Origin: Acinetobacter proteolyticus
GTDB taxonomy: Bacteria; Pseudomonadota; Gammaproteobacteria; Pseudomonadales; Moraxellaceae
Direction of reading: 5' to 3'
Length of the DNA stretch: 64,000 nt
Assembly: GCF_000367945.1 (NCBI RefSeq)
Contig: NZ_KB849179.1
Span: 1,020,935 to 1,084,934, forward strand
Shown: piece after piece, positions 32,140 through 35,372 of the stretch
How positions within the stretch are numbered: position 1 is the stretch's first letter
How the letters are laid out: each line of letters starts with the position of its first letter
The notes under the pieces: generated by a model
Database searches by the model: none
Seen by the model: the letters and a program-made list of their open reading frames with translations, nothing else
Told to the model about the DNA's origin: nothing
Translations under genes and position numbers: made by a program

Positions 32140-33183
32140 TTATTTTTTATGTCGCATTTTCTCAGCAACATCCAACAACACTTGTGCTGTTTTATCCCAA
32201 CCTAGGCAACCATCCGTAACTGACTGACCATAGGTCATATCACAGGATATTTTTTGATTACCATCAACTAGATGGCTTTCAATCATCACACCACGCACTT
32301 TCGATTCAGCGCGCTCTGCAATAATTTGCTGTAAAACCTGTGGTTGCAGTAGTGGATCTTTACCGCTATTACCATGACTACAGTCAATCACCAATGCAGG
32401 TAATTGTTTATGTTTGAAATGCATCGCTTGAATCGAAGCTAAATCATAGTTAGCCCCATGATTTGAACCACGTAAAATCAAATGCGGTAATGGATTACCT
32501 TCACTATGCAAAATTGCGGGTAAACCCTGTTGGGTCATCCCTAAGAATTGATGGCCATGCAGTGCTGATTGAATCGCATCTAAAGCAATTTGAATCGATC
32601 CATCTGTACCATTTTTGAAACCAATGCTGTATGGCATATGGCTGGCAATTTCACGATGAATTTGAGACTCACTGGTACGTGCACCAATGGCACCCCAAGC
32701 CAATAAATCATCGAAATAGCCTGTTGCCATTGGGCTTAAAATCTCACTGGCAATTGGCAAGCCTTTTTCAATCAATTGTATATAAAGCTGACGAGATTTT
32801 TCTAAACCCAGTTGTAAGTCTGATGATCCATCTAAATTTGGATCATACAAGAAACCTTTCCAACCTACCGTGGTACGCGGTTTTTCGATGTATGCACGCA
32901 TAACGAGGAAAATCTGATCTTTAACCTGTTCTTGTAGTTGTTGTAGGCGATCAGCATATTCGAGTACTGCAATAGGGTCATGAATTGAACAAGGACCTGT
33001 AATCACCATTAAGCGATGATCATGTCCAGATAAAATATTCTGAATCGTTTGACGATGTTTTGAAATTTGCTGCGCTAAAGTTGCAGACAAGGGATACTGC
33101 GCTTTGAGTTGTGATGGCAAGCTAAGCATTGATTCTTTTGTATGTGTTTGTGGTTGTGTCAAAGCAGTATTTAAAGCATTCAT
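32140..33183 (-). CDS. aroG: 3-deoxy-7-phosphoheptulonate synthase (class I DAHP synthase)
   Basis: A 347-aa enzyme of the AroF/G/H class that starts the shikimate pathway from phosphoenolpyruvate and erythrose 4-phosphate. VITGPCSIHD, MRAYIEKPRTTVGWKGFLYD, WGAIGARTSESQIHRE, FKNGTDG, RGSNHGANYD and IDCSHGNSGKD are conserved and include the metal and substrate ligands. I cannot tell which aromatic amino acid inhibits it. The ATG at 33183 follows AAAGGA by seven bases. Upstream lie an aromatic-rich leader ORF and a terminator, which suggest attenuation. Confidence 0.93.
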   Translation of the reverse strand: MNALNTALTQPQTHTKESMLSLPSQLKAQYPLSATLAQQISKHRQTIQNILSGHDHRLMVITGPCSIHDPIAVLEYADRLQQLQEQVKDQIFLVMRAYIEKPRTTVGWKGFLYDPNLDGSSDLQLGLEKSRQLYIQLIEKGLPIASEILSPMATGYFDDLLAWGAIGARTSESQIHREIASHMPYSIGFKNGTDGSIQIALDAIQSALHGHQFLGMTQQGLPAILHSEGNPLPHLILRGSNHGANYDLASIQAMHFKHKQLPALVIDCSHGNSGKDPLLQPQVLQQIIAERAESKVRGVMIESHLVDGNQKISCDMTYGQSVTDGCLGWDKTAQVLLDVAEKMRHKK

Positions 33184-33224
33184 TTTCAATTCCTTTGGAC
33201 TGGCCTTCTTCGCAGTCCTATCAT

Positions 33225-33317
33225 TTATTTGAGCAAGTGTGATCTAAGCGATGTTGATTTTTTTGCAAAGTAAAACCAAGAAATCTTGCTAAAATATGAA
33301 TAATTAAATGTATACAT
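33225..33317 (-). CDS. Aromatic-rich leader peptide of aroG
   Basis: A 30-codon ORF beginning MYTFNYSYFSKISWFYF: nine of the first 17 residues are Tyr, Phe or Trp. It has an excellent ribosome binding site (AGGAG, seven bases before the ATG at 33317) and stops 41 bases before the aroG start. After its stop, GGACTG and CAGTCC can pair just ahead of the aroG ribosome binding site. This is the layout expected for control by ribosome stalling when charged Tyr, Phe or Trp tRNA runs low. It is inferred, not a known annotated element to me. Confidence 0.65.
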   Translation of the reverse strand: MYTFNYSYFSKISWFYFAKKSTSLRSHLLK

Positions 33318-33350: not shown

Positions 33351-33382
33351 TAAAAAAACCTGATCGGTGTTGCCGATCAGGT
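33351..33382 (-). terminator. Terminator in the aroG leader
   Basis: On the minus strand CCTGATCGG-CAACA-CCGATCAGG is a perfect nine-pair stem followed by seven T. It stands upstream of aroG and of the leader ORF, so any transcript from further upstream must pass it: a candidate attenuator. Confidence 0.85.
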
Positions 33383-33383
33383 A

Positions 33384-33422
33384 TTAACTGGTTGGGCAAC
33401 CCTTTTGCTGCCCGAAACGCAT
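33384..33422 (-). CDS. Possible first leader ORF before the attenuator
   Basis: A 12-codon frame, MRFGQQKGCPTS, ends one base before the terminator stem region. It contains a hairpin (GGGCA with TGCCC), and its GTTGCC can instead pair with GGCAAC of the terminator. No good ribosome binding site is visible, so it may be RNA structure, not a peptide. Confidence 0.3.
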   Translation of the reverse strand: MRFGQQKGCPTS

Positions 33423-33797
33423 CAGGCAACGATCAATATTGCCAAAAGTAAAAGTATGCGTTGGTGTTTACAGTATGCTTTAACATATTTATTTCAAATA
33501 TCTAAAAAACGGTGTCTAACTATTAAATTACGCACTATTTCAGCATTTGACAAGCACTTTTTATATTTTTTTAATCCTATCTTCAAAACCTTAAAGTTTG
33601 ACCTTTCACCAGTTCCCCCATAGAATAGTGTAAAAATAAACCAAATTGAGATTACGCCAATGAAGTAAGTTCTATTTCCATCATCAAAGTTCATTTTCTT
33701 TTTGATGTGCAAAATAGACTTAGCTATCGTTCAGCGCTGCTTTATTCTAAAACTTATCTCGATCTCTATTTTGCATATCCTGTTTATGAGGTTTCAT
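33423..33797. other. Divergent regulatory region of aroG and the ABC-F gene
   Basis: No gene in 375 bases. It should hold the aroG promoter on the minus strand and that of the ABC-F gene on the plus strand; I see no clear -35/-10 pair for either. Confidence 0.45.
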
Positions 33798-35372
33798 ATG
33801 ACTCAACAGGCATGTATTATTTCCAACCTATCCCTTGAATTAGCCCAGCAAAAACTATTTGACCATCTGAGTTTTCAACTTCCATTGCATCAGTTCACCG
33901 GATTGATCGGGCGCAATGGCCAAGGGAAATCACTATTGATGTCTCTTCTACATGAACAGACAAAATTCAAGCCCCCCTATTCAGGCCAAATCTCATGGCA
34001 GTGTCCACATCAATATCTAGCTCAGCTTCAGCGTGTACAAGCAGATACAATCGCTCAAGCCTTGCATATTGAGGATTTATACCAGTGCTTCAAACGTATC
34101 CAGCACGGTACTGCAGCTTTTGCCGATTATGACCAAGTCGAACATCTGTGGCATTTACCAACAGAATGGCAACAGCTTTTGCAAAGTGCGGATTTACCAA
34201 TAGATCTTGATACCCCCATTCAATATTTGAGTGAAGGCCAAAAAACCAAACTCGCACTGTGTCGCCTATTTCTAGTCAAAGATCATTATCTATTACTGGA
34301 TGAACCCAGTAATCACTTAGATACACGGGGACGAGAATGGCTGATCCAGCAAATGTCTCAACATCCAACAGGTGGGCTCATCATTAGCCACGATCGGCAG
34401 CTACTGTCTCATGTGCAGGGTATTTTTTCCTTAAGTCAGCTGGGACTGCACTATTACGGCGGCAATTATGCACTTTATCAGCAGCAGCATCAGTTACAAG
34501 TCGAATCATTATCGCACGCAGTGCAACAAGAAAAGCGTGAATTAAAACTACTGAAAGAACAGCAACATCAAAGCCAGATGAAATCGCAGAAACGTCAAAA
34601 AGCAGGTCAAAAGTTAAGGGCTTCTGGTTCACAAGCGCCCATTTTACTGGATGCCAAGAAGGAACAGTCAGAGCAATCTCTTTCCCACCTACGCAAACAA
34701 CAGATTAAGCAGCTCACAGATGTAAAAGATCAATTGCAACAGAAGCAAACTCAACTGGAACATCTCAAAACTCAATCTTTCGAATTTGCGCTTATAACCA
34801 GAAAGTCAGGAGAAATCTTACGTTGTCATCAATTACAACTCGCTTATGCGAAGACAAAACCCATTGATCTGGCAATTAGGGCTGGGGAAAAGTTGCATTT
34901 ACGTGGTGCAAATGGAACTGGAAAATCAACCTTATTGAAGACCCTTCAAGGTGTAATGTCGCCAATAACAGGAGAGATTTATCGCAAAGTAATTTCAATT
35001 TATCTTGATCAGACGCTTTCGCTAGTTGATGACAATATTTCAGCTCTTGAATATTTACAGCGTATTGATACTGAACTAACAGAGCAACACGCACGAACCT
35101 TATTAGGCAATCTTCAAATTCGAAGAGATAAAGCCCTTATCCCCATCTCCACCCTAAGTGGCGGTGAACGCTTAAAAGTCGCGTTACTTGCTTTAAAACA
35201 ACAGACTGTGGAGCTGTTACTTTTAGATGAACCTGAAAATCATCTCGATATTGAGTCTCGTGAGTTACTGGCTCAAGCCATTCGTTCTTTTAATGGTGCT
35301 GTGATACTGGTGTCGCATGATGAAACTTTTGTTGAAGAATGTGGAATTACAACAACGTATCAGATGAAATAA
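33798..35372 (+). CDS. ABC-F type ATPase
   Basis: A 524-aa protein with two ATP-binding cassettes and no membrane segments. Cassette 1 has GRNGQGKS, LSEGQKTKLALCR and LLLDEPSNHLD; cassette 2 has GANGTGKST, LSGGERLKVALLAL and LLLDEPENHLD. A charged coiled coil of about 100 residues (rich in Gln, Lys and His) joins them, as in ABC-F proteins that act on ribosomes. The first signature has Glu for the usual Gly (LSEGQ). The ATG at 33798 follows GAGG; an upstream extension to 33702 is not supported. It may relieve ribosome stress or give antibiotic tolerance, but the subgroup is unclear. Confidence 0.85.
   Translation: MTQQACIISNLSLELAQQKLFDHLSFQLPLHQFTGLIGRNGQGKSLLMSLLHEQTKFKPPYSGQISWQCPHQYLAQLQRVQADTIAQALHIEDLYQCFKRIQHGTAAFADYDQVEHLWHLPTEWQQLLQSADLPIDLDTPIQYLSEGQKTKLALCRLFLVKDHYLLLDEPSNHLDTRGREWLIQQMSQHPTGGLIISHDRQLLSHVQGIFSLSQLGLHYYGGNYALYQQQHQLQVESLSHAVQQEKRELKLLKEQQHQSQMKSQKRQKAGQKLRASGSQAPILLDAKKEQSEQSLSHLRKQQIKQLTDVKDQLQQKQTQLEHLKTQSFEFALITRKSGEILRCHQLQLAYAKTKPIDLAIRAGEKLHLRGANGTGKSTLLKTLQGVMSPITGEIYRKVISIYLDQTLSLVDDNISALEYLQRIDTELTEQHARTLLGNLQIRRDKALIPISTLSGGERLKVALLALKQQTVELLLLDEPENHLDIESRELLAQAIRSFNGAVILVSHDETFVEECGITTTYQMK

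Follow-up and report, generated by a model that had tools for sequence, protein, structure and literature searches.

The closest described counterparts of the element analyzed here are the enteric pheL, trpL and hisL attenuators, which combine a leader ORF carrying end-product codons with mutually exclusive hairpins and an intrinsic terminator. For the anti-TRAP operon of B. subtilis, Chen and Yanofsky reportedly described (2003, 2004) a tandem sensing of uncharged tRNA-Trp. The available excerpts of two papers on this operon (rtpA) describe the sensing of uncharged tRNA-Trp in tandem at the levels of transcription and translation (PMC11255114, PMC4027176). Putative or reported attenuators exist for aromatic-pathway genes in Gammaproteobacteria, too. 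Table 7 of one paper predicts an attenuator for the Vibrio DAHP synthase-tyrA operon (PMC1173090), a table in another gives a putative or reported one for Shewanella aroF (PMC2659441), and an excerpt of a third cites attenuation of P. putida trpE and trpGDC (PMC8297930, citing Olekhnovich and Gussin 2001). These concern other genes or lineages, and the parts of the sources at hand describe no tandem leader. Two leader peptides 5′ of one gene, as here, take part in the induction of ermB (PMC8274638, in excerpt), but that is drug-induced resistance control, not amino acid sensing. Finally, the Rfam family P15 is suspected to be a cis element from its synteny with a TPP riboswitch in the excerpt of one paper (PMC2527527) and is named only among known small RNAs in that of another (PMC2375449).

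In the window, by which we mean the whole 64-kb stretch of Acinetobacter DNA that was analyzed, both aroG and its entire leader system are encoded on the minus strand (Table 1). Our main reading, to which we give a probability of about two in three, is that the aroG leader consists of two aromatic-codon leader peptides in series, of which the first (LP1) would attenuate transcription and the second (LP2) likely adjusts translation. Unlike the enteric leaders, this one would control DAHP synthase, the entry step; its codons include those for Tyr, Phe and Trp alike, and it has a second leader peptide after the first. As in the anti-TRAP operon, as far as the excerpts describe it, there would be two successive sensors of one signal, a transcriptional one and then a leader peptide with an effect on translation; unlike that operon, whose first sensor is a T-box riboswitch responding to Trp only, both sensors would here be leader peptides. 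Since tandem sensing is known from that operon, the kind of logic has a precedent. What is new is that two leader peptides, with codons for Tyr, Phe and Trp, follow each other ahead of DAHP synthase. Among openly licensed papers, a scope outside of which most subscription journals lie, we found no account of this leader in Acinetobacter or Pseudomonas.

Table 1. The aroG leader and its surroundings, in window coordinates and in order of transcription
Feature	Position	Strand	Basis or remark
Putative promoter, TTGTCA (33553..33548), 17 nt, TAATTT (33530..33525)	33525..33553	-	Sequence pattern
LP1, upstream leader peptide, MLKHTVNTNAYFYFWQY, 17 codons before its stop, with a weak SD	33433..33486	-	ORF reading
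Whole attenuator (G000:C3:1054285-1054393)	33351..33459	-	Covariance model R1 match, E=2.8e-24; only match listed in this genome; window is among the R1 build rows
Segment 1, GGCAA, within LP1 Trp-Gln codons	33439..33443	-	Pairs with 2
Segment 2, GTTGCC (TTGCC motif)	33425..33430	-	Pairs with 1 or 3
Segment 3, CGGGCAGC (GGGCAGC motif)	33407..33414	-	Pairs with 2 or 4
Segment 4, GTTGCCC	33394..33400	-	Pairs with 3 or 5
Segment 5, CGGCAAC, terminator 5′ arm and loop; antiterminator partner of 4	33369..33375	-	Alignment, folding
Intrinsic terminator, CCTGATCGG-loop-CCGATCAGG, then TTTTTTT	33352..33381	-	Terminator scan
LP2, second leader peptide, MYTFNYSYFSKISWFYFAKKSTSLRSHLLK, 30 codons, SD AGGAG	33225..33317	-	Readable in 64/65 Acinetobacter loci
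Hairpin GGACTG...CAGTCC, between LP2 stop and aroG SD	33197..33218	-	96.7% of cells paired in 35 sequences; two pairs changed on both sides
aroG Shine-Dalgarno (SD), AAAGGA	33191..33196	-	Read from sequence
aroG, DAHP synthase (3-deoxy-7-phosphoheptulonate synthase)	32140..33183	-	ATG at 33183; NF009395 475.5 bits, TIGR00034 412.3 bits, both above the curated cut-off

The aroG product shares 98-99% protein identity with its nearest named relatives among the matches listed (A. gyllenbergii, A. dispersus, A. higginsii and others). Our Acinetobacter sample consists of 65 aroG loci found among the best 79 relatives listed, the 14 non-Acinetobacter loci being omitted from it. An aroG ortholog is present in 39 of 41 Acinetobacter genomes and absent from G101 and G119. 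These two genomes contain only the other DAHP synthase, and a search of G119 with the attenuator model returned no attenuator, as if leader and gene had been lost together. In the genome of the window itself, the paralogous DAHP synthase (G000:C3:762670-763668) has no aromatic-rich ORF within 500 nt upstream. A promoter pattern, TTG[TA][CAT]A-N16-18-TAnnnT, lies 67-77 nt 5′ of the LP1 Trp codon in 61 of the 65 Acinetobacter loci and is absent from the other four (L041, L044, L049, L064). The TTGTCA-17-TAATTT instance in the window is likely the promoter of the aroG leader; a generic promoter scan of the window did not place this candidate among its listed sites. The divergent neighbor gene (33793..35372, plus strand) reads by eye, in translation, as an ABC-F-like ATPase with two nucleotide-binding domains.

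The preliminary description of this region had located an enteric trp/phe logic in a single ORF, now LP2, and had overlooked LP1. The part of the aroG leader that matches such logic is LP1, with its leader ORF, terminator and antiterminator, and LP2 is not the whole system. LP1 is positioned ∼115 nt upstream of LP2. In all 65 Acinetobacter loci it has a (Y/F)FW-type ending, NAYFYFWQ(Y/F)-like, with a stop codon; its SD in Acinetobacter is weak. Three hairpins come 3′ of it, the last being the terminator with its seven T, and 67-78 nt separate the LP1 stop from the terminator end in the 63 Acinetobacter loci matched by regular expression. The terminator likewise matches by pattern in 63 of the 65 loci, and L039 and L054 have variant terminators. 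Within the leader, one short motif occurs five times with alternating sense (segments 1-5), and the 3′ arm of the terminator forms segment 6. We take this part to be a six-segment ladder of the hisL type.

Both of the alternative sets of pairings that this ladder allows are conserved. In attenuator alignment A1, whose 41 sequences are the window and 40 of the 65 Acinetobacter loci, 96.5% of the cells of the termination set (1:2, 3:4 and 5:6) are paired; for the antitermination set (2:3 and 4:5), which is exclusive of the first, the figure is 90.5%. As a control, sliding the partner by 1-3 columns left only 15-50% paired. The terminator pairs are kept in 99.7% of cells, with CG changed to UA on both sides in 5 rows. 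Both-sided changes are few (5 cells in 5:6 and 10 cells in 2:3), as is expected because a segment must fit two partners. We also folded the RNA as it would be when just made up to segment 5, with a 32-nt ribosome mask either on the aromatic codons or at the stop of LP1. When the mask was moved from the aromatic codons to the stop in the window, P(4:5) went from 0.91 to 0.00 and P(3:4) from 0.09 to 1.00. Across the 41 rows, stalling raised P(4:5) relative to the stop position in 26 and lowered it in none; the other 15 gave no clear switch in the equilibrium fold.

Covariance model R1, run on whole genomes under strict filters, found one copy of the attenuator in 33 of 37 Acinetobacter genomes; those not matching were G119, which is without the aroG ortholog, and three genomes at 65-91% completeness. 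At E<=0.001 it gave no match in 21 genomes of other genera, a set that includes G168 of family f21 (see below), whose locus matches weakly in the locus-level search. An Rfam scan of the window yielded no family above its cut-off, T-box and other riboswitches included. The alignment and the folding model make it very probable that LP1 is a transcription attenuator, and its adherence to his/trp attenuator logic, with three hairpins, an intrinsic terminator and a mutually exclusive antiterminator, is well supported by both.

As for LP2, the preliminary description had pointed to a 30-codon ORF with a good ribosome binding site, rich in Tyr, Phe and Trp, separated by 41 bases and a GGACTG/CAGTCC hairpin from aroG. 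All of this is present: the ORF, on the minus strand, is a leader peptide that follows LP1 in tandem; AGGAG serves as its SD; Y, F or W make up 9 of its first 17 residues; 41 nt run from the end of its stop codon to the aroG ATG; and the hairpin stands directly 5′ of the aroG SD. Its comparison with trp and phe leader peptides, and the suggestion to look for a conserved frame and conserved aromatic codons in Acinetobacter, also proved sound. An aromatic ORF with an SD occurs at the same position, just 3′ of the terminator, in 63 of 65 loci; frame, aromatic codons and the hairpin before the aroG SD are conserved. In a 64th locus (L063) the ORF is divergent and was read by eye; in the 65th (L082) a 1-nt deletion shifts the frame and cuts LP2 short.

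LP2 is the sole ORF of 10-45 aa on either strand of the 64-kb window that has an SD-like site and at least six aromatics in 11. Thirty first-order Markov simulations yielded, on average, 0.43 ORFs of this kind per 64 kb; thus density alone is not decisive, and it is conservation that settles the reality of LP2. The core S-Y-F-S-(N/K)-x-x-W-F-Y-F is matched in 60 of 63 Acinetobacter loci (33 distinct rows), and its residues stay aromatic under synonymous change (Tyr as TAT in 22 and TAC in 11, Phe in 33 of 33, Trp in 32 of 33). In A. apis, A. rathckeae and A. baretiae (L063, L065, L067), LP2 is divergent and has fewer aromatic codons, and LP1 is intact. A. baylyi (L040) reads YFSNVDYFYF, with the Trp codon lost and the frame and hairpin kept. 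With conservation as the ground for its translation, LP2 can be held to be a translated, selected leader peptide with nearly the same confidence that we have in the LP1 attenuator.

A comparable arrangement exists in a related family. The window element scores 20.8 bits with RF00627 (P15, "Pseudomonas sRNA"), short of the cut-off of 70. Unlike the Acinetobacter element, P15 is filed as a small RNA gene; like P15, the Acinetobacter element precedes a DAHP synthase, the enzymes of both falling together on one side of the tree, with the same hairpin and terminator layout and with weak syntenic R1 matches between the two. A P15 search of 115 genomes of the order returned 7 matching genomes (4 above the cut-off), and in 7 of 7 the match lies just upstream of DAHP synthase. 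P15 exceeded its cut-off in 15 of 15 scanned DAHP synthase loci of the family that we call f21 and in 0 of 5 of the other loci scanned. Because f21 carries Rfam's Pseudomonas family P15, we take it to be Pseudomonadaceae. All 30 f21 DAHP synthase loci (L120-L149, the best-scoring 30) have an LP1 ending in ...GYWFS... or near it, together with a strong terminator, and L150, from another family, has both as in f21. Among 27 DAHP synthase loci of other Gammaproteobacteria (L152-L178), none has LP1 and terminator in the f21 form; L152 and L168 have an aromatic ORF upstream of DAHP synthase without a terminator. R1 at E<=1 across 65 loci, three of them entered twice, gave 24 matches, or 21 distinct places, among 35 P15-type leaders, and 0 in 27 others. 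These matches overlie the P15 match or the terminator; the best has E=0.033, and none is significant singly. A crude LP1 switch test in f21 did not discriminate, with 8 up and 4 down among the 40 run out of 50. P15 has the appearance of an attenuator leader that ends at its terminator, and Rfam could reclassify it as cis-regulatory. We also observed that RF00627 overlaps the aromatic leader ORF and the terminator 5′ of DAHP synthase in L113-L149.

The order LP1, terminator, LP2, hairpin, DAHP synthase is common to Acinetobacter and f21. In all 30 f21 loci, an ORF with aromatic codons lies between the terminator and DAHP synthase (23 recognized by density, 7 by motif), examples being MTTYYRTDRYYRYDWRFSRF... 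and MNTTYYRYYRNSDWRFSS...; no clear LP2 is present in L117 and L150. The core of the f21 LP2, W-R-F-S, is mostly written TGGCGATTTAGC (UGG CGA UUU AGC) and is nearly frozen at the nucleotide level (L120-L149, L116, L118). Of 56 loci searched with close forms of TGGCGATTTAGC, 40 were retained, representing 38 distinct leaders. Among the other 16, L118 has the exact motif, ten retain TGGCGATTT with its end changed, L181, L194 and L197 diverge further, L150 has none, and L183 is uninformative, its region having come from the wrong side of the gene. The 12-mer occurs once per genome in four f21 genomes, by coordinates always at LP2; in three other genomes, a search for it found no match. The core keeps its CGA Arg codon, and the Arg codons before it are mostly CGC, a retention that suggests selection on the f21 core as codon or as RNA. 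When partners for TGGCGATTT were sought by eye in the hairpin arms, the start region and attenuator segment 4, none seemed to hold across species. In many f21 loci, LP1 has a similarly frozen TATTGGTTTAGCC.

The hairpin that precedes the DAHP synthase SD is likewise shared by the two groups. A script recovered it in 60 of 63 Acinetobacter leaders, and the other three (L019, L020, L058) have it by eye. Among P15-type leaders it was found in 38 of 39, in a set that was picked by the LP2 motif and holds two duplicates; one more leader was too short for the test. At L198, outside this set, LP2 is present and no hairpin is visible by eye. The hairpin sequences of Acinetobacter and P15-type leaders are unrelated, and covariation is seen in Acinetobacter. 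A role for LP2 as a second transcription attenuator was ruled out, since the hairpin before aroG has no T run and is not a terminator.

The predicted effect of LP2 on the aroG start was modeled by folding the RNA in three ribosome states (on the LP2 core, at the LP2 stop, and ribosome-free) and comparing the energy required to open the DAHP synthase start. In 45 of 59 distinct Acinetobacter leaders, a ribosome on the core leaves the start easier to open than one at the stop does, the reverse holding in 4; among P15-type leaders, the same is true of 32 of 38, the reverse holding in 2. Compared with ribosome-free RNA, stalling leaves the start more open in 28 and less open in 14 of the 59 Acinetobacter leaders, and more open in 24 and less open in 3 of the 38 P15-type leaders. 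The difference between the stalled and stop states exceeds the codon-shuffled mean in 37 of the 59 Acinetobacter leaders (p=0.0015, a value that treats related genomes as independent and is therefore too small). For four loci with corrected aroG starts (L019, L020, L058, L066), the shuffles were redone, and two lie above the shuffled mean, one level with it and one below. In P15-type leaders the difference exceeds the codon-shuffled mean in 29 of 38. These divide into a first 28, of which 24 are above it (p=2e-6, too small as well because related genomes are taken as independent), and a last 10, which fare worse, with 5.

The Acinetobacter signal above the shuffles comes from the A. calcoaceticus-baumannii complex and certain other lineages. 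The clade to which the window itself belongs (L004-L023, L032, L038) has 19 distinct leaders, of which, with the aroG starts corrected, only 5 show an LP2 effect above the codon-shuffled mean. L004, which does not differ from the window anywhere from LP2 through the aroG start, has an LP2 effect of 1.16 versus 2.44 shuffled. Direct complementarity between LP2 and the start ranks 31 or better among 200 codon-order shuffles in 22 of 63 loci; the A. calcoaceticus-baumannii complex is among the groups in which it is strong. Consensus folding from LP2 to aroG gave no covarying LP2-start pairing, with only the hairpin standing out; the SD-ATG spacer aligns poorly, which weakens this test. Direct pairing of LP2 with the aroG start was dropped as a general rule, being at chance level against shuffles in the window clade. 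The earlier proposal that LP2 alters translation of aroG thus stands in part. It is plausible, in that the ribosome-masked folds agree with it in direction. They exceed the codon-shuffled controls in the A. calcoaceticus-baumannii complex and in the majority of P15-type leaders, but not in the window's own clade. We consider the chance that LP2 is a switch on aroG translation to be even or somewhat better. The translational switch is a fair prediction for the leader family, unproven for the window's species.

In a tree of 46 DAHP synthases, all 18 sampled leader-bearing enzymes fall on one side, with support of 100/99. That side also holds L152, a long branch without such a leader, and the other 27 rows, among them the leaderless paralog from the window's own genome, fall on the far side. 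The leader label requires 2 changes on this tree. A single origin shared by leader and enzyme is the simplest reading of this pattern.

In the scheme that we propose, the leader would work in two stages. Scarcity of charged Tyr-, Phe- or Trp-tRNA would bring a ribosome to a halt at the YFYFW codons of LP1, where it would cover segment 1. Pairing of 2:3 and 4:5 would then block the terminator, and RNA polymerase would proceed into aroG. When the tRNAs are charged, a ribosome at the LP1 stop would cover segments 1 and 2, allowing 3:4 and 5:6 to pair. Transcription would then stop before aroG and a short RNA would be released, which in the Pseudomonas lineage would be Rfam P15. On the readthrough mRNAs, a ribosome on LP2 would sense the same three amino acids again. 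If it stalled on the aromatic core of LP2, the hairpin before the aroG SD would stay intact and hold the LP2 RNA off the aroG start; if it reached the LP2 stop, the hairpin would melt, the LP2 RNA would pair with the start region, and translation would fall. Of these elements, we infer the stalling, the regulation by tRNA charge and the LP2 switch in its entirety from the conserved layout and the folds. In its fullest form the leader would be a double lock, read twice for the same three amino acids and setting first transcription and then the strength of translation. This design would have come down together with the enzyme on one side of the DAHP synthase tree (Pseudomonadales and relatives), leaving as its by-product the orphan small RNA P15 and having, in the Pseudomonas lineage, a second peptide with a nucleotide-frozen pause motif (UGG CGA UUU AGC). 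We give this complete picture even odds.

This scheme can be weighed against other readings, two of which concern LP2. LP1 could be the only regulator and LP2 a translated relic, perhaps of a leader duplication, which merely helps ribosomes to reach aroG and senses nothing. Loss or decay of LP2 in L117, L150 and L082, where LP1 stays, fits this view, as does the lack of a start-opening effect beyond shuffles in the window clade. However, a relic would be expected to decay faster than LP2 has: its frame and aromatic-rich stretch are kept in 63 of 65 Acinetobacter loci, with one further copy divergent, the f21 LP2 retains a nucleotide-level core, and the hairpin before the SD is retained in both groups despite unrelated sequence. 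We hold the relic to be unlikely. An equally improbable variant, drawn by analogy with the leader peptide of the anti-TRAP operon, where a ribosome at the stop codon sterically hinders initiation downstream and a stalled one does not, keeps LP2 as a sensor and dispenses with RNA pairing: a ribosome at the LP2 stop would hinder initiation at aroG sterically, and a stalled one would not. It gains from the tandem tRNA-sensing precedent, as excerpted above, and from having no need of the LP2-start complementarity that is missing in the window clade. The conserved hairpin in the 41-nt gap would shorten the distance, but a ribosome at the LP2 stop would itself melt that hairpin, and in the sequence 28 nt separate the end of the LP2 stop from the SD, beyond the reach of a ribosome footprint.

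In keeping with Rfam, which lists P15 as a plain gene, and with its place among the small RNAs detected by Livny et al. (PMC2375449, in excerpt), the upstream element might be a trans-acting small RNA gene that adjoins DAHP synthase incidentally. This is very improbable in view of its position upstream of DAHP synthase in 7 of 7 genomes, the aromatic leader ORF and antiterminator pairings that it holds, its association with one side of the enzyme tree, and the excerpted report that already suspected a cis element from synteny with the TPP riboswitch (PMC2527527). The terminated leader RNA may still act in trans as a by-product. The idea that AT-rich sequence produced the aromatic richness by chance deserves virtually no weight. 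The simulated rate of 0.43 ORFs per 64 kb would allow it for a single window, but it is refuted by conservation, with LP1 in 65 of 65 and LP2 in 64 of 65 loci, and by recurrence in GC-rich relatives.

Two aromatic-codon leader peptides in series, as in our main reading, would explain how the entry of carbon into the aromatic amino acids is controlled in Acinetobacter and Pseudomonas. They would also give the orphan Rfam family P15 a likely function. More broadly, the aroG leader would be a natural and simple case of one signal being read twice in series, first on transcription and then on translation.
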